This document shows, piece by piece, positions 25,264 through 33,935 of a DNA stretch of 42,451 bases. The notes beneath the pieces are model-generated. The model saw only the letters and a list, made by a program, of their open reading frames with translations. It was not told the DNA's origin and did not search any database. The position numbers were made by a program, and so were the translations under genes. The DNA lies in contig JANXUA010000072.1 of NCBI GenBank assembly GCA_025352085.1, positions 1 to 42,451 on the forward strand, read 5' to 3'. Origin of the DNA: Caulobacteraceae bacterium. Lineage in GTDB: Bacteria; Pseudomonadota; Alphaproteobacteria; Caulobacterales; Caulobacteraceae. How positions within the stretch are numbered: the stretch's first letter is position 1; each line of letters begins with the position of its first letter.

Positions 25264-28242
25264 CTAGAACCGCCCGGTCAGCTTCAACCCGATGAGGCGC
25301 GGGTCGGTGACGAAGATGTTGGTGGTGAGGGCGGAGTCGTCGCTGTTGAGGAAGGCGCCGGAGATGGCGGTGGTGTTGAAGACGTTCTTCACATAAGCCT
25401 CGACTTGGAGCCCCCAACGCGGTTTGGCCAGCTTGAGCGACAGGTTGACGTTGCTGTAGCCGTGAATCTGGTCATAGGGCTTGTCGTTGAAGACCCGGGC
25501 ATAGGAATTGCCCTGCAGGTAGAAATCGCCGCGGAGGGTGGCGTACCAATCCCAGGGCAGGGGTTGGACATACTGGGCGCCGATCGACAGCGTGAAGGGC
25601 GGGGTGTTGGGCAATTTGTGGCCGGAGAGGTCCTTGAAGAAGCCCGCGCCGTGGTTGGGGGCGGTGCTCGGGTCGAACGGTTCGCTGAGGCTGGCGAAGA
25701 TCTGCCCGGCGTTCCCGTAGGCCTCGCCGCAGGCATAGGGAATATTGGCGCCGACGATGGTGCTGCCATTGTCGTCGGCGAGCAGCTGGGCGACCAGACT
25801 TGTCGGCAGGATGCAATTCGAGGTGCCGGCGATGTCCGAATTGACCACGGTCCAGGCGGGATTGCCCGCCGTTCGATCCATCAGATCGATCGCCTGTTGG
25901 CCTTTCGCCACCGAGCTGTCCTCCAGACCGAGATTGGCGTTCAAGGTCAGGTTGCGGCTCGGCGACCACAGGGATTCTATTTCGACACCCCAGATGTTAG
26001 CGTCTACGTTCTGGGTGATGGCGCTGCGGTCGACGATCGTCGACAACTGATATCCTGTGTAGTTGTAGAAGAACGTGCCGATGTTCAACGTCATCGCGCC
26101 ACCGAGCAGTGTGTTCTTTGTGCCAATCTCGAAGGCATTATTAAACTCCGGCGCGAACGTCAGCGGATGGGTGACACTCTGTGAGCTTTCCGACAATAGA
26201 TTCGCTTCCGGCGGCGGCGGATTTGCGCCGCCGCCTTTATACCCGCGCGCGTAGGAGGCATAGACTATGGTGTGGTCGGTGAACGCTAGCCGCGGCGTCC
26301 AGTCGACGTTGAAACGGCCGGTAAATGCCTTCCACTCTTGTCGCACTTCGCCCGTGGAAGGGTAACCGCCACCCTCCAGGAACGTCCAGCTCGGTTGGCT
26401 TATGAATCGCTTGCGGTCGTCGGTGAACCGCACGCCCGCTGTCAGCTTGAGGTCCGGCGTCGCCTGAACGTACAGTTCACCGAACGCCGCATAAGACTGC
26501 AGTCGATACGGATTGGAGCTTCGGACATAGTTATGTCCCTGACCGTTGAGACGGCTGAGCGGGTTGGGATCGATATAGGTTCCGTTTAGATATAGGGGCG
26601 CTCCTGGAGCGAGACAGCCGAAGACCGATGGGAAAGCCCCGACGTCGAAACCTGGTGGGATGTCGGGGGCCAAAGTGTTAATATCGATGATATGAGACGT
26701 GATTGGCACCGGTTGACCATTGCACGTGAAATCACCGGGTTGTGCGTTTGGGTTGCCCGGGCGGCCCAACGTAAGGCCAGCATAATTCACGTTCTGTACA
26801 AGAGCCGTAATCAGGTTGTCGAAGACAAAATAGTCTTCTTGGGTTTCATATCGCGTATAGTTAGCGCCGATATTGAAATTTACCGGCCCCTTCCAGTTAG
26901 AAGTAAGTCGGATTTCCTGTGAAAACTGCCGGGATTTCGCTCTGGAAAGGTCCTGGGCGACGATTCTATCCGAACAACCCAGCTGCGGATCGCAATATAT
27001 TCCATTTGGTGACAACAGGCCTATGGCGGGGAAAATCCCTGCAGCCGTATCGAACCGATTGTAGTCCTCGCTCGAGCGGATGACGTCCCTATTGTAACCA
27101 GTGTATGAATAAAAAGTGAGGGCATTGCTCAATGCATAGGATATATTCAGTTCAAATGTATTGCTTTCTGCCCCGTACCTAGGATCGATCTGTGACTGCA
27201 CGTCGCGCAGGTTGGTCGACTGGGTGGCACTGGCGTAGGGGTCGACCGGATTTAGGATCGGATTGCCATTCGCATCCGGGAACAGATATTGAGCGCCCCT
27301 CACGAAGGGGATTGCCAGGCCGTTGGGAGTCTGAAACGCGGTCTTGGCGTAGAGAGACCCAGGCAGGCAGCCTTGCGACAGCCAGGCCGCGTCAAGCGGT
27401 ATGGGGACCTGGCCGCCGATCTCGGTGGGTGTCGGCGCGCGTTCGCACAGTTGCTTTGTCGATCGGGCGCGATTGTCGTTCTCGTCGAAGTGTTCCCAAA
27501 TAGCGTCCACCGTGAGCCGCGCGTTCGGATGGAAACGCAGGCTCACCCGGCCGGACCACAGGTCGCGCCCATCGATCGAATGACCGGTGGTTTCGTTGTA
27601 GGCAAAGCCGTCGCGCTTCGTCCAGGCGCCGGCCACCCGCAGGTCGAGTACGTTGCCCGCGAGGGGTAGATTTACGAAGCCGCTCAGGCGCCGGGTTGAA
27701 TAATTGCCGATTTCGCCGGTCAGCTCTGCTTCGTACTTATCCGTCGGCTTGGCGGAGATGATATTGACCACGCCGGCGGTGGCGTTGCGGCCATAAAGTG
27801 TCCCCTGCGGCCCGCGCAGCACCTCCACCTGGCTGACATCGAAGAATTCCTGTTCGAACAGGTGATTGCGGATGAAGGGGGTGTCGTTGAACGAGACAGC
27901 GACGCCTGGATCCACGGTCGCGGAAATGGCCTGGGTGCCGATGCCGCGAATCTGAATGTTATAGCCGGTGAAGTTAGTCTTGGAGAAGGTCATGTTGGGC
28001 ACGGCCTTGAGCAGGTCCGGACCGCCTTCGATCTTCTGCGATTCCAGGGCCTGCGGGGAAAGGGCCGTGATGGCGATCGGCACGTTCTGGACGTTCTCCG
28101 ACTTCCTCTGGGCGGTAACGATGACCTCGTTGACCGGGGCGCCGCCGGCGGCGGCGGACACACCGCTCGCGGCGCCCATCGTGAGGGTGACGGCTGAAGC
28201 GCCCGCAATCAGACGAGCGCGGCGGGTGTGTCGGTCGTTCAT
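25264..28242 (-). CDS. TonB-dependent outer membrane receptor
   Basis: Outer-membrane beta-barrel transporter of 992 aa that takes up an unknown large or scarce substrate with energy from TonB-ExbBD. A signal peptide covers about residues 1-31. A TonB-box-like E-V-I-V-T-A-Q-R follows, then the plug domain with R-G-I-G-T and V-E-V-L-R-G-P-Q-G-T-L-Y-G-R-N-A. The barrel ends with the terminal phenylalanine expected for outer-membrane insertion (L-T-G-R-F). ATG 28242 follows GGGGAGG. The style matches the many receptors of Caulobacter and sphingomonads. A mid-barrel stretch at about 26600-27180 is distinctly AT-richer. A TetR gene lies directly upstream on the same strand. Iron-siderophore, sugar or aromatic substrates are all possible. 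Confidence 0.93.
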   Translation of the reverse strand: MNDRHTRRARLIAGASAVTLTMGAASGVSAAAGGAPVNEVIVTAQRKSENVQNVPIAITALSPQALESQKIEGGPDLLKAVPNMTFSKTNFTGYNIQIRGIGTQAISATVDPGVAVSFNDTPFIRNHLFEQEFFDVSQVEVLRGPQGTLYGRNATAGVVNIISAKPTDKYEAELTGEIGNYSTRRLSGFVNLPLAGNVLDLRVAGAWTKRDGFAYNETTGHSIDGRDLWSGRVSLRFHPNARLTVDAIWEHFDENDNRARSTKQLCERAPTPTEIGGQVPIPLDAAWLSQGCLPGSLYAKTAFQTPNGLAIPFVRGAQYLFPDANGNPILNPVDPYASATQSTNLRDVQSQIDPRYGAESNTFELNISYALSNALTFYSYTGYNRDVIRSSEDYNRFDTAAGIFPAIGLLSPNGIYCDPQLGCSDRIVAQDLSRAKSRQFSQEIRLTSNWKGPVNFNIGANYTRYETQEDYFVFDNLITALVQNVNYAGLTLGRPGNPNAQPGDFTCNGQPVPITSHIIDINTLAPDIPPGFDVGAFPSVFGCLAPGAPLYLNGTYIDPNPLSRLNGQGHNYVRSSNPYRLQSYAAFGELYVQATPDLKLTAGVRFTDDRKRFISQPSWTFLEGGGYPSTGEVRQEWKAFTGRFNVDWTPRLAFTDHTIVYASYARGYKGGGANPPPPEANLLSESSQSVTHPLTFAPEFNNAFEIGTKNTLLGGAMTLNIGTFFYNYTGYQLSTIVDRSAITQNVDANIWGVEIESLWSPSRNLTLNANLGLEDSSVAKGQQAIDLMDRTAGNPAWTVVNSDIAGTSNCILPTSLVAQLLADDNGSTIVGANIPYACGEAYGNAGQIFASLSEPFDPSTAPNHGAGFFKDLSGHKLPNTPPFTLSIGAQYVQPLPWDWYATLRGDFYLQGNSYARVFNDKPYDQIHGYSNVNLSLKLAKPRWGLQVEAYVKNVFNTTAISGAFLNSDDSALTTNIFVTDPRLIGLKLTGRF

Positions 28243-28382
28243 GGCAGGCCTCCCCTTCAGCGCTCGGCCCACTTCGGGATCGGCGCGCAACGTTTCTCCG
28301 TAATTTCTTTGGGGAAGCGGCTTCGAAGACGAGCCGTCCCTCGGCCGAAACTCGCTAGTATCGACCATGCTGTCAATACCTA

Positions 28383-28398
28383 TTTACGTTAATGTTTA
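28383..28398 (-). promoter_or_regulatory. Candidate TetR operator upstream of the TonB receptor
   Basis: TTTACGTTAATGTTTA shares the core AC-n-TTAATGT with the perfect dyad at 29964-29977. It sits between the first TetR gene and the receptor, about 140 bp before the receptor ATG. Inferred from similarity of three sites only. Confidence 0.4.
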
Positions 28399-29025
28399 TT
28401 AAGATGGCGAAAGGGGTGCGGATAGAAAGGACGGTAGAAGACGCGTGGCGATGCGCCGCACCGCGTGGCGGTCGCGTCCGAGCATAGCGTGGAGCGGCTC
28501 GCCGATCAGCGAATCGCCGACCGCGCACAGGGCGATAAACAGCAGCGCCGAGGGAATATGGCGGGGCGTGTCGCCGCTGGGCGCGCCGACCTTTTCGTTG
28601 ACGGCGTCCACCAAATGGTTGACGGCGTGTCGCACCGGCTCGAGATGCTCAAAGCGATCCGACAGCGCGATCCAGGCCGCGAGTTGGCCGGCTCCGTTGG
28701 TGTCGAACGAATTAAAAATGATATCAACCATGGCCTTAGGGCCGCCCACGTCGGATCGCACATGAGCGACCGCTTCCGCCAAAGCCGTCGCCAGGTCGCG
28801 CACCATGGCGCCCATCAGAGCCGATTGAAGCTGGGCGACCGATCCAAAATGGTGGCTGAGGACGCTGTGGGTGACGCCGATATCCTGCGCCACGGCCGAC
28901 AGCGTGACGCCCGCTGGGCCTTCGGCGAGCAGGATCCTGCGGGCCGACGCGAGGGCCTGTTCGCGGGCCTCGTCAGGCGAGCGTCGCCGACGCTTGAGCC
29001 GCACCGGCACCAATATCTGATCCAT
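28399..29025 (-). CDS. TetR-family transcriptional regulator, paralog 1
   Basis: TetR/AcrR-type repressor of about 208 aa. The N-terminal helix-turn-helix reads A-S-A-R-R-I-L-L-A-E-G-P-A-G-V-T-L, then I-G-V-T-H-S-V-L-S-H-H-F-G-S; the C-terminal half is an unassigned ligand-binding helical domain. ATG 29025 is used; a GTG at 29049 would add 8 residues and would put the start inside a dyad similar to the operator of paralog 2. It lies upstream of the TonB receptor on the same strand, 156 bp apart, and shares most of its DNA-binding region with the TetR gene at 29352, so the two come from a duplication. Confidence 0.88.
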   Translation of the reverse strand: MDQILVPVRLKRRRRSPDEAREQALASARRILLAEGPAGVTLSAVAQDIGVTHSVLSHHFGSVAQLQSALMGAMVRDLATALAEAVAHVRSDVGGPKAMVDIIFNSFDTNGAGQLAAWIALSDRFEHLEPVRHAVNHLVDAVNEKVGAPSGDTPRHIPSALLFIALCAVGDSLIGEPLHAMLGRDRHAVRRIATRLLPSFLSAPLSPS

Positions 29026-29042
29026 TTCGTCGCCGCCCCATG

Positions 29043-29058
29043 TTGACACTCATGTAAC
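29043..29058 (-). promoter_or_regulatory. Candidate TetR operator at the start of TetR paralog 1
   Basis: TTGACACTCATGTAAC matches the perfect dyad before paralog 2 (TTGACATTAATGTCAT) at 12 of 16 positions and is itself partly symmetric. Its place at the gene start suggests autoregulation. Inference. Confidence 0.4.
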
Positions 29059-29148: not shown

Positions 29149-29272
29149 CCGTCTTAGCCGGGCGTCAGTCCCGGCTACCTATTGGGCGAGCGGTGGGTGT
29201 GGCCGTGTGCGCGCACGGCCAATGCGAGTTCTCGCCCAATGGGTCACCGGCACTGACGGCCGGTGATGACGG
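29149..29272. repeat. Dispersed long palindromic repeat, copy 2
   Basis: It has the same order of parts as copy 1: CCGTC...CCGGG at the left, GATGACGG at the right. The inner pair ATTGGGCGAG (29181-29190) and CTCGCCCAAT (29231-29240) is perfect here, and the core GGCCGTGTGCGCGCACGGCC is nearly symmetric. Copies differ at many positions but keep the pairing, which suggests that the structure is maintained. Confidence 0.8.
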
Positions 29273-29351: not shown

Positions 29352-29969
29352 TCAGAACAGGAAGGTCGGCAGCAATCGCGACACGATCCGGCGAGCGCTG
29401 TCGTTCTCACGCCCCAGCATGTCGCGCAACGACGGCCCGATCAGCGCGTCGCCGAAGGCGCAGATGGCGATGAACAGCACCGCCCCGGTGATTCGGTCGC
29501 GGCCTTCGGCGCCCTGCTCGGCGAACTTCTGGTGGATGGCGTCGACCAAAGCCTGCACGGCGGCGCGAACCGGTTCGAGATGTTCCAGGTCGCCGGAAAG
29601 GACGATCCAGGCCGCGAGGCGACCGGCGGCGCCCGAGTCGAACGCATCGAACACCTCGTCCACCAATGCCCGGGGGGCGCCGGCGTCGGACCGGAGATTG
29701 GTGACCGCGACGGCCAGCGCATCGGTCAAATCGCGCACCATCGAACCCATCAAGGCGGCCTGAAGATCGGCCGCCGAGCCGAAGTGGTGAATGAGGTTGC
29801 CATGGGTGACGCCGATATCGTCGCCCACCGACTTCAAGGTCACCGCGTTGGGGCCACCCGCGATGAGCAGCCGCCTCGCCGAGGCCAACGCTTCGCGCCG
29901 GGCCTCCTCCGGGGTCCGCCTGCGTCGCCTCGCGCCACCGTTGCTCCCCGTATTCTGCGTTATTGACAT
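29352..29969 (-). CDS. TetR-family transcriptional regulator, paralog 2
   Basis: TetR/AcrR-type regulator of about 205 aa, with R-R-R-R-T-P-E-E-A-R-R-E-A-L-A-S-A-R-R-L-L and I-G-V-T-H-G-N-L-I-H-H-F-G-S as the DNA-binding part. It aligns closely with paralog 1, including the following L-Q-A-A-L-M-G-S-M-V-R-D-L segment. Start choice is open: ATG 29969 lies inside the perfect dyad TGACATTAATGTCA, ATGs at 29978 and 29981 lie just before it, and none has a clear Shine-Dalgarno sequence, so a leaderless message is possible. It is divergent from the Coq4-like operon, the classic place for a local repressor. Confidence 0.87.
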   Translation of the reverse strand: MSITQNTGSNGGARRRRRTPEEARREALASARRLLIAGGPNAVTLKSVGDDIGVTHGNLIHHFGSAADLQAALMGSMVRDLTDALAVAVTNLRSDAGAPRALVDEVFDAFDSGAAGRLAAWIVLSGDLEHLEPVRAAVQALVDAIHQKFAEQGAEGRDRITGAVLFIAICAFGDALIGPSLRDMLGRENDSARRIVSRLLPTFLF

Positions 29970-29977
29970 TAATGTCA
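29964..29977. promoter_or_regulatory. Perfect dyad, candidate TetR operator between paralog 2 and the Coq4 operon
   Basis: TGACATTAATGTCA is a perfect 14-bp palindrome at the 5' end of the TetR gene and about 125 bp before the Coq4-like start. Size and symmetry suit a TetR dimer. Similar sites lie before TetR paralog 1 and the TonB receptor. The palindrome is observed; binding is inferred. Confidence 0.6.
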
Positions 29978-30101
29978 TCATTATCCATATAGACTTCAAG
30001 GCGCTCGGCCCGCTTCCGACGACGCGGTCACCGATCCTCGTGAATCGATGTCACCCGCCCACCCACGGCCCGCCTGCTCAATGGCGAGTTTAGGAGATAA
30101 C

Positions 30102-30899
30102 GTGACGACCGCCCAGACCTCGCTTGCATCCACCCCCCGAAGGCCGATCCAACCGCTCCGAGCCCTGCGCGCCTTTCGCCGGTTGGTGGCCGACAAGGAG
30201 GACACGCGCCAGGTTTTCGAGATCCTGAGCGCGCTGGCTGGCCGGTCGATGGATAAGGGCTACGCGCGGCTTCTGAACACCGCCGAGGGGCGACGGCAAG
30301 CGGACCTGCGCGTGGAGCTGAGTGATCGCCTCCAGGACGGGGCCTGGCTGGAGAGCCTCCCGCCCGGGAGCGTCGGCGCGCTCTATCGCGCATTCATCCG
30401 ACCCCGGCGGCTGTCCGCGTACGGGCTCGCCGATGAGAGCCGTGGCGTGCGGGACGCCGACTTCGACGCCCCCCATGAGGTCGCCTGGTACGCGCGACGC
30501 CTGCGCGACGTCCACGACATCTGGCATGTGCTCACCGGCTACGGGACCGACGCCCTGGGCGAAGCCTGCGTGGTCGCGTTCTCCTGCTCGCACGCGCGCA
30601 GCCCGGGGCTAGCGCTGATCGCCCTCGGCGCGGCGCTGGAGTTCAGGCGCCTGGGGATCCGTCAGCCGTACGCCCGGGCGATCGGGCAGGCCTGGCGCAT
30701 CGGTCGTAGGACGGCCTGGCTCGCGCCGGTGGACTATGAAGCCCTGCTCGCCGAACCGATCCATGCGGCGCGTCGGCGCCTGAACATCGCGCCGCCCAGG
30801 GTCTACGACGCCATTCCGGTCGACGGGCGCAACGGCTACCGATACGCCGCCGATACGGCCACGACGCGGCGGATCGGGATCGTCGGTGGCCTCGCATGA
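30102..30899 (+). CDS. Coq4-family protein
   Basis: A 265 aa protein of the COQ4 family. It carries the full family metal motif H-D-x-x-H-x11-E (His138, Asp139, His142, Glu154) in the segment H-D-I-W-H-V-L-T-G-Y. COQ4 is needed for coenzyme Q synthesis in eukaryotes and has been linked to chemistry at C1 of the ring. Bacterial Coq4-like proteins in TetR-controlled operons, as here, need not be part of the main ubiquinone pathway. The GTG start at 30102 has AGGAG at 5 nt; an ATG at 30081 lacks one. The stop overlaps the next gene (ATGA, 30896-30899). It begins an operon of three coupled genes. Confidence 0.88.
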   Translation: MTTAQTSLASTPRRPIQPLRALRAFRRLVADKEDTRQVFEILSALAGRSMDKGYARLLNTAEGRRQADLRVELSDRLQDGAWLESLPPGSVGALYRAFIRPRRLSAYGLADESRGVRDADFDAPHEVAWYARRLRDVHDIWHVLTGYGTDALGEACVVAFSCSHARSPGLALIALGAALEFRRLGIRQPYARAIGQAWRIGRRTAWLAPVDYEALLAEPIHAARRRLNIAPPRVYDAIPVDGRNGYRYAADTATTRRIGIVGGLA

Positions 30900-31750
30900 G
30901 CGTAGCGACCGTCACGCCCGCCGACCTGAATATCCACGTACGCCATCTCGCCTTCGGGCGGGACGCGCCCGCGCCTCGCTGGTGGCTGGGGGGAGATCCG
31001 GTGGCGACCGCCTTCTACAACGCCCTGTCGATCACCTTTCCTCAGGGCGAGCGATTTTTCATGGACAGCGTCCGCCGCTATCGGCCGCTCGCCTCCCCGG
31101 CTCTCGACGGGCAGATCGAGGCCTTTCTGGCGCAGGAGGCCACGCACACGCGGGAGCACCTGGCGTTCAACCATCAGGTGGCCGCCAACGGCTACGACGT
31201 CACGGCCATGGACGCGCGAACCCACGCCACGCTGAGCTTCACGCGCCGGCGACCCGATCACGTGCAACTGGCCTCGACCATCGCCCTGGAACATTTCACG
31301 GCCATCCTGGCGCACGCCCTGCTGGCAGACCCACGGCATCTTCGCGGCGCCTCGGAGGAGGCCGGCGCGATGTGGCGCTGGCACGCCATCGAAGAGCTCG
31401 AGCACAAGGCGGTCGCCTTCGACACCTTCGTGGCGGCGACCGCCGATTGGCCCCGTCATCGCCGGTGGCTGCTGCGCGTTCTGACGATGGCGGGGGCGAC
31501 GTGGCTTCTGTTCCTGAGCATCGGGCGCAACATCGGCGACCTGTTCGCCCAGGACGGCGTCGGCGTCGGCGCCTGGCGGCGCCTCGGCGGATTCCTGTTC
31601 TTCACGCCGGGTATCCTGCGCCAGATCCTGTCCCGCTATCTCACCTACTTCCGCCCGGGCTTTCATCCGTGGGAGCATGACGACAGAGCCCTGATCGCCG
31701 CGGCCGAGGCGAGCCTGGCGCTGCGAGGCGATCGGAGCGCGGCGGCATGA
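30896..31750 (+). CDS. PF10118-type 'metal-dependent hydrolase' with diiron-like motif set
   Basis: A 284 aa protein that I recognise as the family usually named predicted metal-dependent hydrolase (PF10118). What the sequence shows is two E...E-x-x-H sets: Glu52 with E-A-T-H (81-84), 29 residues apart, and Glu132 with E-L-E-H region (Glu167 to His170), 35 residues apart. That is the spacing of ferritin-like four-helix diiron proteins, so an oxygenase- or desaturase-like activity is at least as plausible as hydrolysis. A hydrophobic segment lies near residues 190-208, which may place it at the membrane. ATG overlaps coq4 and the stop overlaps the next ATG, so it is tightly coupled to both neighbours. 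Confidence 0.8.
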   Translation: MSVATVTPADLNIHVRHLAFGRDAPAPRWWLGGDPVATAFYNALSITFPQGERFFMDSVRRYRPLASPALDGQIEAFLAQEATHTREHLAFNHQVAANGYDVTAMDARTHATLSFTRRRPDHVQLASTIALEHFTAILAHALLADPRHLRGASEEAGAMWRWHAIEELEHKAVAFDTFVAATADWPRHRRWLLRVLTMAGATWLLFLSIGRNIGDLFAQDGVGVGAWRRLGGFLFFTPGILRQILSRYLTYFRPGFHPWEHDDRALIAAAEASLALRGDRSAAA

Positions 31751-32154
31751 GCGCCGGTCTCGCGCTCGCCCTCACCGTTCTCGCCACGGCGTCCGGCGGC
31801 ATCGAAGGGCTGTGGAAGACGCCGGTGGACGGCGGGAGCGTCGTGAAGATCGAGGCTTGCGGCGGCGCCATCTGTGGCCGCGCCGTCACCTCGCCCCGGT
31901 TGCGCGCCGTGCCCGGCCAAACCGATGTCCGCAACCACAACCACGCCCTGCGCGGTCGCGCGCTCATGGGGCTGTTGATCCTGAAGGTCCGACCGCTAAG
32001 CCCTGGCCGGTGGGGCGACGGCTGGGTCTACGATCCCGAAGAGGGCGCGACCTACCAGGGCGCGATCACGCTGCGCGACGACGGGCGACTGGAGCTCAAG
32101 GGCTGCGTGGTGGCGCCGTTCTGCAAGACGCAGGTCTGGACGCGTTCCGACTGA
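31747..32154 (+). CDS. DUF2147-family exported protein
   Basis: A 135 aa protein. The first 17 or so residues form a hydrophobic export signal ending near A-T-A-S-G-G. The mature part has the DUF2147 pattern: G-L-W-K-T-P near the start, an acidic/cysteine segment C-G-G-A-I-C-G-R, G-W-V-Y-D-P-E-E-G in the middle and L-K-G-C-V near the end. Four cysteines (two pairs) suggest disulfides in the periplasm. The family has no firm function; it is expected to be a small beta-rich, possibly lipid-binding protein. ATGA overlap with the diiron-like gene makes it the third member of the operon. Confidence 0.85.
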   Translation: MSAGLALALTVLATASGGIEGLWKTPVDGGSVVKIEACGGAICGRAVTSPRLRAVPGQTDVRNHNHALRGRALMGLLILKVRPLSPGRWGDGWVYDPEEGATYQGAITLRDDGRLELKGCVVAPFCKTQVWTRSD

Positions 32155-32317: not shown

Positions 32318-32596
32318 ATGGGCCATGTCGCCAACGAACGAACCAAACTCCTCAATCGTCTCAGGCGCATCCGCGGTCAGGTCGAGGCGATCGAACGGGC
32401 CGTGGTCGAAGAGAAGGAATGCGCGCGCGTGCTGCAGCAGGCGACGTCCTGCCGCGGGGCCATGGATGGCTTCATCGCTGAAGTCATCGAGGATCATATC
32501 CGCGAGCACATGATCGATCCCGCCGCCGGCCAGGATGATCCGCGCCGGCTGGCCGCCGAGGACCTGGTCGGCATCGTCCACGCCTATCTGACCTAG
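32318..32596 (+). CDS. RcnR/FrmR-family metal-sensing regulator
   Basis: All-helical repressor of 92 aa from the CsoR/RcnR/FrmR family. It has the family core R-L-R-R-I-R-G-Q-V-E-A-I-E and C-A-R-V-L-Q-Q. The residues at the four sensor positions are His3, Cys35, His60 and His64, the same set that binds nickel or cobalt in E. coli RcnR; formaldehyde-sensing FrmR keeps only Cys35 and His60 of these. No nickel/cobalt exporter or formaldehyde dehydrogenase gene is adjacent. A second cysteine (Cys45) is additional. It is convergent with the SnoaL-like gene, with a shared terminator hairpin directly after the stop. Confidence 0.88.
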   Translation: MGHVANERTKLLNRLRRIRGQVEAIERAVVEEKECARVLQQATSCRGAMDGFIAEVIEDHIREHMIDPAAGQDDPRRLAAEDLVGIVHAYLT

Positions 32597-32635: not shown

Positions 32636-33001
32636 TCACGCCGCCGGCGCGGCGTCGATGAAGCCGGTGACGTCGCACAGGCGTCCATCGGCGGCCACGA
32701 ACGCGAAATCGGCGCCAAACAGGACCGGCGCGCCGCCGCCGTCCGGGGCCAGGCTCCAGGAAAAGCGCAAGCGGTCGACGTGGGCTTCGCCGGCGCCCCG
32801 CAGCCTCAGGCTGTGGCCCGGAAAGTGGCTCTGGGCTTCGCCGATCATGTCGCTGATCGCGTCCTGGCCATCGGCCCGTCGCGCCGGATCGACATAGGAG
32901 CCGTCCTTGGTCCAGGTGCGCGCGACCAGGTCGCGCCGACGGGCCGGATCCCGTTCGTTCCAGGCCGCGAGATAGTGGTCGACGATTTCGGGAGTGGTCA
33001 T
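32636..33001 (-). CDS. SnoaL-like (NTF2-fold) protein
   Basis: A 121 aa protein with the cone-shaped NTF2/SnoaL fold pattern: E-I-V-D-H-Y-L-A-A-W-N-E-R-D-P at the start, W-T-K-D-G-S-Y-V-D-P, and G-F-I-D-A at the end. Such proteins act as small isomerases, hydrolases or binding domains; no catalytic role can be read. ATG 33001 has GAGG upstream; the longer frame runs over the divergent regulator gene and is rejected. It is divergent from the XRE regulator at 33135, which is a likely controller. Confidence 0.82.
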   Translation of the reverse strand: MTTPEIVDHYLAAWNERDPARRRDLVARTWTKDGSYVDPARRADGQDAISDMIGEAQSHFPGHSLRLRGAGEAHVDRLRFSWSLAPDGGGAPVLFGADFAFVAADGRLCDVTGFIDAAPAA

Positions 33002-33134
33002 ATTCGCCTCGTGTGAACTTAAGTTGCCGGCTCGCTGGTGTGACGGGATGAGGCGAAACTCCGCCAATCTCGGCGCACCGTCGATTACCTCGCAGGTTAT
33101 GGGAGGGGCGCGATCGTCGGTATAGGGTTCGCCC

Positions 33135-33935
33135 ATGCTGCGGACCGCGACATCGGTGGGCGATCAGTTGCGCGTCTGGCGCCGGCGCCGACGCATGAGC
33201 CAGCTGGATCTGGCCTGCGAGGCCGATATCTCGACCCGGCATTTGAGTTTCGTGGAGACCGGTCGCTCAACCCCCAGCCGCGAGATGATCCTTCATCTGG
33301 CCGAGCAGCTCGACGTCCCCCGGCGCGAGCGCAACGTCCTGCTGGTGGCCGCCGGCTATGCGCCGATCTTCCCCGAACGGGCGCTGGACGATCCGGCGTT
33401 GGCCGCGGCGCGCGGCGCGATCGAGATCGTGCTGGCCGGCCACATGCCCTATCCCGCCTTCGCCCTGGACCGGCATTGGCGGATCGTCGCCACCAACGGC
33501 GCCTTGCCGCAGCTGTACGAGGGCGTCGATCCGGTTTTGCTGGCGCCGCCCGTCAACGTGATGCGTCTTAGCCTGCATCCCGGCGGCCTCGCGCCCCGGA
33601 TCGTTAACCTCGCCGAATGGCGCGAGCACCTCCTCACCCGTCTGCGCCAGCAGATCGATCTGACCGCCGACGCCGTCTTGGTCGAGCTGATGAGCGAACT
33701 GCGCGCCTATCCCTCGCCGACGCCCACCCGGCCCCCGACGCAAGCCGCGCCGGCGCCCGTGATCACCCTGCGCGTTCGCGTGGGCGCGCAGACGCTGTCG
33801 TTCTTTACGACGACAATGATTTTCGGCACGCCGGTGGAGATCACCCTCTCTGAACTTGCGCTCGAGTCCTTCTTCCCCGCCGATCCCGATACCGCCGCCG
33901 CCGTGGCGCGGCTGTCGGGGCGCGAGCGGGGATAA
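33135..33935 (+). CDS. XRE-family regulator with MmyB-like domain
   Basis: A 266 aa regulator. Residues 8-60 form a helix-turn-helix (Q-L-R-V-W-R-R-R-R-R-M-S-Q, then A-D-I-S-T-R-H-L-S-F-V-E-T-G-R). Residues from about 85 match the MmyB-like sensor domain with H-W-R-I-V-A-T-N and N-V-M-R-L-S-L-H-P-G-G. MmyB domains are PAS-like and are thought to bind a small ligand, possibly a fatty acid. It is divergent from the SnoaL-like gene with 133 bp between the starts, an arrangement that suggests direct control. Confidence 0.9.
   Translation: MLRTATSVGDQLRVWRRRRRMSQLDLACEADISTRHLSFVETGRSTPSREMILHLAEQLDVPRRERNVLLVAAGYAPIFPERALDDPALAAARGAIEIVLAGHMPYPAFALDRHWRIVATNGALPQLYEGVDPVLLAPPVNVMRLSLHPGGLAPRIVNLAEWREHLLTRLRQQIDLTADAVLVELMSELRAYPSPTPTRPPTQAAPAPVITLRVRVGAQTLSFFTTTMIFGTPVEITLSELALESFFPADPDTAAAVARLSGRERG

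Follow-up and report, generated by a model that had tools for sequence, protein, structure and literature searches.

We analysed a stretch of 42,451 nucleotides (the window) from a Caulobacteraceae bacterium (assembly GCA_025352085.1, contig JANXUA010000072.1; the genome comprises 3.0 Mb over 187 contigs), in which a short operon encodes a Coq4 family protein, a PF10118 protein and a DUF2147 protein (Table 1). A first-pass annotation of the sequence had described these three genes as coupled by ATGA overlaps and divergent from a TetR regulator gene, here called TetR1. Pfam matches and the two overlaps (30896-30899 between Coq4 and PF10118, and 31747-31750 between PF10118 and DUF2147) confirmed this arrangement. 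The Coq4 gene likely starts at the GTG at 30102, which is preceded by GGAG; the longest open reading frame begins at the ATG at 30048. The unit drawn in the first-pass annotation is too narrow, because a second TetR gene (TetR2) and a gene for a TonB-dependent receptor are conserved with the operon and belong to it. The two TetR regulators are paralogues: a search with TetR2 as the query retrieved the TetR1 reading frame with 228.7 bits. Between both TetR genes, at 29149-29272, lie two spacer-free arms of 62 bases that are 74% complementary and possibly represent a terminator or a repeat element.

Table 1. Genes and operator-like sites of the Coq4-PF10118-DUF2147 locus in the window.
Feature	Position	Strand	Remarks
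TonB-dependent outer-membrane receptor	25264..28368	-	PF00593 E 2.5e-23, PF07715 E 1.9e-15; probable start near 28242
Weak operator-like site, upstream of receptor gene	28384..28397	.	4 mismatches; alone not significant
TetR2 (second TetR regulator, TetR1 paralogue)	28399..29049	-	TetR_N E 1.6e-6
Operator-like site at TetR2 start	29044..29057	.	2 mismatches to TGACATNNATGTCA
TetR1 regulator	29352..29999	-	TetR_N E 1.3e-7; probable start ATG 29969
Perfect dyad TGACATTAATGTCA	29964-29977	.	0 mismatches; over probable TetR1 start, between TetR1 and Coq4
Coq4 family protein (PF05019)	30102..30899	+	E 2.6e-19; intact HDxxHx11E
PF10118 protein	30896..31750	+	E 1.4e-78; predicted ferritin-like, with a predicted dimetal-carboxylate ligand set
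DUF2147 protein	31747..32154	+	E 5.7e-26; predicted lipocalin, probably exported

To place the locus among its relatives, the loci of the best 80 of 307 Coq4 relatives were compared, a sample from which rarer layouts may be missing. The order of receptor, TetR2, TetR1 and the divergent Coq4, PF10118 and DUF2147 genes recurs in Caulobacteraceae: it was found in the window, L052 and L058 and, among the PF10118 places described below, in L245 (where all six genes are present, the receptor being clipped by the stretch examined), and L069 keeps this order as far as a contig end inside Coq4. The receptor beside this TetR pair is similar in L052, L058, L069 and L245. L082 and L084 contain both TetR genes and all three operon genes with no adjoining receptor. 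The three-gene unit of the first-pass annotation therefore recurs in at least five other genomes (L052, L058, L082, L084 and L245; L243 and L244 were taken to duplicate L084 and L082 and were not counted separately), but it is neither fixed nor complete. A fixed three-gene module was rejected, since Coq4 without PF10118 and PF10118 without Coq4 both occur behind related TetRs with the same operator.

Two layouts were distinguished: type A, the window's TetR-linked Coq4-PF10118-DUF2147, and type B, a TetR-linked Coq4-DUF2147 that often stands ahead of a beta-oxidation operon. In most type B loci, as in L052, L058, L082 and L084, TetR1 is divergent from Coq4. A Coq4 tree was built from 106 rows (the best 80 of 307 relatives, 25 rows from the class and the window; L224 was dropped before the tree). 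All six type A rows formed one group (95/89) and all 29 type B rows formed another (100/99); the two together made up one group of 35 rows (98/89), separate from 46 rows of TetR-less Coq4. Several rows from other families, and also the window's own row, are on long branches. Repeated Coq4 genes were observed in two places: three consecutive copies, the first and second of which are separated by a weakly TetR-like frame (L002, 1-3678, in G110 from another family of the order), and a gene pair side by side (L241, 6559-8326, in G232).

Homology search detected DUF2147 behind Coq4 in 19 of the 29 type B loci, and in many type B loci genes for FadE, a PRK08261 FabG, a MaoC dehydratase, a FadI-like thiolase and a long-chain FadD follow DUF2147, as in long-chain fatty-acid beta-oxidation operons. 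FadE and FadD are present in the flanks of 18/29 and 16/29 type B loci, respectively. At least one beta-oxidation gene was found in the flanks of 20/29 type B loci, compared with 2/46 loci with Coq4 but no TetR and 0/6 type A loci. Four type B loci showed none of the beta-oxidation, SBF transporter or PRK12834 dehydrogenase genes considered here. The type A locus of the window differs in that PF10118 takes this place, and genes for acyl-CoA dehydrogenase, hydratase and thiolase were not found near the six type A loci, the window included. All neighbour-gene counts are lower bounds, because gene calling skipped several DUF2147 genes and also the window's TetR2, where an antisense frame was kept. 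The genes beyond DUF2147 vary in the type A layout: a convergent FAD aromatic hydroxylase-like gene lies there in L052 (12073-13632), and other gene kinds occupy the position in L058 and L082.

The first-pass annotation had also reported a perfect dyad with the divergent TetR gene. The probable Coq4 start follows this dyad, TGACATTAATGTCA, at a distance of 125 bases. The dyad is conserved in relatives, and in 200 single-base shuffles of its region the core was never matched as well. In 81 sequences, which are related loci and not independent, the core TGACATNNATGTCA with at most two mismatches precedes 29 of 35 TetR genes and 7 of 13 receptor genes, compared with 9 of 1,109 other genes. The value of 29/35 was anchored at the TetR genes; anchoring at the Coq4 frame gave 27/35 and misses sites where that frame starts far upstream. 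A single operator, TGACATnnATGTCA, marks most TetR genes of both Coq4 groups, roughly every second receptor gene and, where Coq4 is absent, many PF10118 genes.

The PF10118 genes were sampled in Caulobacteraceae at 20 places chosen by hand from about 120 listed, half of them among the best scoring. A homologous TetR stands beside PF10118 in 18 of these 20 (92 to 300 bits), and 13 of the 18 TetR-PF10118 gaps, whose limits were set by eye, contain a site with at most two mismatches. Most of these places have no Coq4 in the stretch; L248 and L252 carry the receptor, two TetRs, PF10118 and DUF2147. Because most operator-bearing TetR-PF10118 places lack Coq4, Coq4 and PF10118 look like alternative or joint parts of one regulatory scheme.

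When the operator pattern was searched on both strands of the window's own genome, 26 matches were obtained, compared with one for a control pattern. Away from the contig of the window they occupy 19 places; 16 of these were examined, and in 6 of the 16 the match lies inside a predicted gene. The best site, on contig C12, is 38 bases 5' of an alpha/beta hydrolase gene that is followed by a short-chain dehydrogenase gene; naming by family search was applied to the C12 genes only. FabG-, thiolase- or FadD-like genes are present in 4 of the 16 stretches (L160, L163, L168 and L171), and as far as these were read they are not directly behind the site.

The window's Coq4, the only Coq4 found in its genome, matches PF05019 with 69.8 bits (cut-off 22.9). 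The H-D-x-x-H-x11-E motif that had been reported as intact reads HDIWHVLTGYGTDALGE, and the motif is kept in 105 of the 106 rows other than the window, the exception being L223 with x12. COQ4 of ubiquinone synthesis belongs to the same family and has the same intact metal motif; it is described in vitro as a Zn-dependent C1 decarboxylase with this motif (PMC7615680) and in cells as an oxidative decarboxylase (PMC11495197). The window's Coq4 differs from it in its apparent control by TetR, in its lipid-linked neighbourhood and in its UbiD-bearing genome. The best solved relative by sequence is Alr8543 of Nostoc (PDB 6E12; 5.4e-8), which shares the metal motif. The crystal structure of this Coq4 homologue is described as containing oleic acid, instead of which the withdrawn model that it replaced had geranylgeranyl monophosphate (PMC9774615).

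The two E...ExxH sets noted earlier in the PF10118 protein were found as E52...E81xxH84 and E132...E167xxH170. These six residues are invariant in 32/32 rows, one of which repeats the window, and H88, H163, E166 and E169 are likewise invariant. The structure comparison (VIA) of the PF10118 model (predicted local distance difference test, pLDDT, 74.7 from 5 sequences) listed 50 rows, of which 49 were R2, R2lox, AurF/CmlI or methane monooxygenase groups and the other was TenA; the best row was CmlI with Z 13.0. By this model PF10118 is a candidate ferritin-like protein in which the six invariant residues would serve as metal ligands. It shares the E, ExxH, E, ExxH pattern with dimetal-carboxylate oxygenases such as AurF/CmlI, R2lox and ADO and may resemble them in its predicted fold, whereas PF10118 has no significant sequence relative in the PDB (best E 0.83). 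Some class Ie R2 proteins are metal-free. The literature listings searched for PF10118 and for COG3687 yielded no functional study of PF10118; that family appeared there in connection with lanthipeptide proteases.

The DUF2147 model (pLDDT 86.3, 25 sequences) matched the lipocalin 4inn with Z 15.4 over 119 residues at 2.3 A (Foldseek E 4.6e-8), the next row having Z 9.0, and a sequence search with DUF2147 against the PDB returned none. The protein is predicted to form a lipocalin-type beta barrel resembling the HP1028-type bacterial lipocalin (PDB 4inn), although the identity is 21%. Its N-terminus is hydrophobic, as judged from the hydropathy average alone, and the N-termini of its relatives look signal-peptide-like by eye in the alignment. 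No functional study of DUF2147 was found in the literature searched.

The first-pass annotation had suggested an inducible pathway acting on a quinone, isoprenoid or other lipid. The lipid part of this proposal is supported by the conserved operator, the type B beta-oxidation operons, the predicted lipocalin and ferritin-like folds and the Coq4 homologue whose structure is described as holding oleic acid. We propose, with about even confidence for and against, that the locus is an inducible module that imports and oxidises a long-chain lipid from outside the cell, the likeliest candidate being a carboxylate of the fatty-acid type. Derepression would come from a lipid-derived ligand, perhaps the CoA ester, that releases TetR1, TetR2 or both from TGACATnnATGTCA. 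The lipid would be imported by the TonB-dependent receptor and carried across the periplasm by the DUF2147 lipocalin. Coq4 would hold it at the inner membrane and act on its carboxyl end via the HDxxHx11E metal site, and the putative dimetal-oxygen centre of PF10118 may hydroxylate, desaturate or shorten it. The products would enter beta-oxidation, whose genes follow Coq4-DUF2147 in many type B loci. Gene order, conservation, the shared operator, phylogeny, intact ligand residues and predicted folds are the observations from which we infer the ligand, the repression, the direction of transport, both reactions and the order of the steps. The proposal is also favoured by an MlaA-type gene behind DUF2147 in L082, with a gene of the same cluster in L084, by the acyl-CoA ligase gene near the divergent TetR and Coq4 genes of L240, by the beta-oxidation-type genes beside PF10118 in L235, and by the number of genomes of the class that have both Coq4 and PF10118.

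Several results weigh against an import and oxidation module. None of the six type A loci, one of which is cut short, has a beta-oxidation gene in its flanks, and a search of the window's own genome for a FadE of the ACDH_C type, the kind present in type B loci, found none. No clear lipid regulon emerges from the additional operator-like sites of that genome, and such a regulon was rejected. L240, a locus outside the six-gene order in which a TetR gene is divergent from Coq4 and an acyl-CoA ligase gene is nearby, contains only a site with three mismatches in the TetR-Coq4 gap. The receptor and both TetRs are without substrate-specific annotation: the solved structures matched by the receptor are siderophore, heme, colicin/pesticin and B12 receptors only, with no substrate hint, and TetR1 scored 33.8 of 330 bits on the NCBIfam model for FasR and 26.8 of 201.3 bits on that for BetI, both under the cut-off. 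With Foldseek the best match of the PF10118 model was at E 0.052, none being below E 0.001, and since Z values up to 13 can arise by chance for helical models, the invariant ligand residues are a stronger argument than the fold. Among seven PF10118 loci outside the six-gene order, beta-oxidation homologues were found in three (L232, L233 and L235, the last having genes for a FadB-like protein, a thiolase and an acyl-CoA dehydrogenase next to PF10118), but none in the other four (L236-L239). The pairing of Coq4 and PF10118 itself depends on the sample. Across 289 genomes of the class, 27 have Coq4 and 26 have PF10118 scoring above cut-off, and 17 have both, where about 2.4 would be expected (Fisher 1.6e-14, kinship ignored); among 118 near relatives, however, the numbers are 71, 38 and 21, respectively, and no association was found (one-sided p 0.83, kinship ignored).

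A further extension of the import and oxidation module, which we regard as doubtful, is that the TetR-linked proteins constitute a second, non-quinone branch of Coq4. In such a branch, Coq4 would be a catabolic enzyme that processes lipid carboxyl groups and would oxidatively decarboxylate or present long-chain acids, and the presumed dimetal oxygenase of type A, PF10118, would be an O2-dependent substitute for, or an entry into, the FadE-type beta-oxidation of type B.

It is also conceivable, though unlikely, that the locus serves the homeostasis of membrane lipids, with the TetRs sensing acyl chains of the cell itself while Coq4 and PF10118 remodel endogenous lipids or clear damaged ones, so that no exogenous substrate is involved. 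The lipocalin and ferritin-like folds fit this explanation equally well, and in many loci where PF10118 stands behind TetR this receptor is not in the examined stretch. Moreover, a gene for an MlaA-type lipoprotein, related to outer-membrane lipid asymmetry, directly follows DUF2147 in L082 (12098-13123), and a gene of the same cluster is present in L084. Against homeostasis, a large TonB-dependent receptor is linked in both layouts (9/29 type B loci, and the window, L052, L058, L069 and L245), and the operator with at most two mismatches precedes 7 of the 13 such receptor genes.

The type B neighbourhood raises the question of a steroid or bile-acid-like substrate, on which the dehydrogenase and the SBF symporter would act while the acyl-CoA genes degrade the side chain. 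An SBF transporter gene is found in 13/29 type B loci and an FAD_binding_2 dehydrogenase gene in 17/29, and the latter is weakly similar to 3-ketosteroid dehydrogenase models. Its best model is, however, the unnamed PRK12834 with 904 bits, compared with about 49 bits for the steroid models; for FadE and thiolase the best matches are general fatty-acid models, and none of these genes lies near any of the six type A loci. We thus consider a steroid module improbable.

The quinone part of the earlier proposal fared less well than the lipid part. It would assign to the locus an accessory quinone or isoprenoid chemistry in which Coq4, like COQ4, would remove the carboxyl group of an aromatic quinone precursor, with ring hydroxylation by PF10118. 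The decarboxylase activity reported for COQ4, the intact motif in the window's Coq4 and the geranylgeranyl monophosphate of the withdrawn model are in line with it, as is the FAD hydroxylase beside the operon in L052, which scored 105.8 of 224.65 bits on a UbiH/COQ6 family model. These bacteria depend on ubiquinone. However, the genome, in which the first-pass annotation had suggested looking for a second ubiquinone route, has genes for UbiD (E 1.0e-149) and UbiA outside this locus, and the idea that Coq4 is needed for lack of a UbiD route does not hold. Coq4 is missing from 130/390 Caulobacteraceae, and from 102/311 of those with a completeness of 90% or more and a contamination of 5% or less. 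Since UbiA and UbiD are present elsewhere and a third of the sampled Caulobacteraceae have no Coq4, a role of the window's Coq4 in ubiquinone synthesis is unlikely. None of 26 neighbour proteins reached a quinone-synthesis cut-off in the family scan. A quinone-only explanation is weakened by these findings, and an accessory quinone chemistry appears quite improbable. That Coq4, PF10118 and DUF2147 are separate accessory genes, which share a widespread type of TetR operator and were assembled by chance, without a pathway in common, agrees with the many gene combinations behind related TetRs and with the absent association among near relatives, but is very improbable because the same order is kept in at least six genomes and the type A rows form one Coq4 tree group.

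Other regulatory and transport genes were observed around these loci. Immediately 3' of the operon, at 32318-32596, the window encodes an FrmR/RcnR-like metal or formaldehyde repressor (PF02583); the 80 related loci yielded no homologue of it. A gene for an MmyB-like regulator (MLTR_LBD; 33135-33935) is divergent from that of a SnoaL-like protein (32636-33136), and a homologue of this regulator occurs near an unlinked Coq4 in L095. Several type B loci of Caulobacter have an RND efflux set on the far side of TetR1 (L061, 3010-9162); clusters 37 and 38 were seen in six loci.

The families encoded at the locus are known, but their combination is apparently undescribed. In the literature searched, the Coq4-PF10118-DUF2147 combination was not found, and nothing was found that treats Coq4, ubiquinone biosynthesis and alphaproteobacteria together. 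In one paper that pairs Coq4 with TetR, TetR refers to COQ9. Research on COQ4 mostly treats it as a coenzyme Q protein, and COQ4 deficiency causes human disease. The import and oxidation module offers functional hypotheses for PF10118 and DUF2147, and if it is true, a Coq4 that heads a lipid-oxidation operon would make a general lipid-carboxyl chemistry of the Coq4 family testable in easily grown bacteria.

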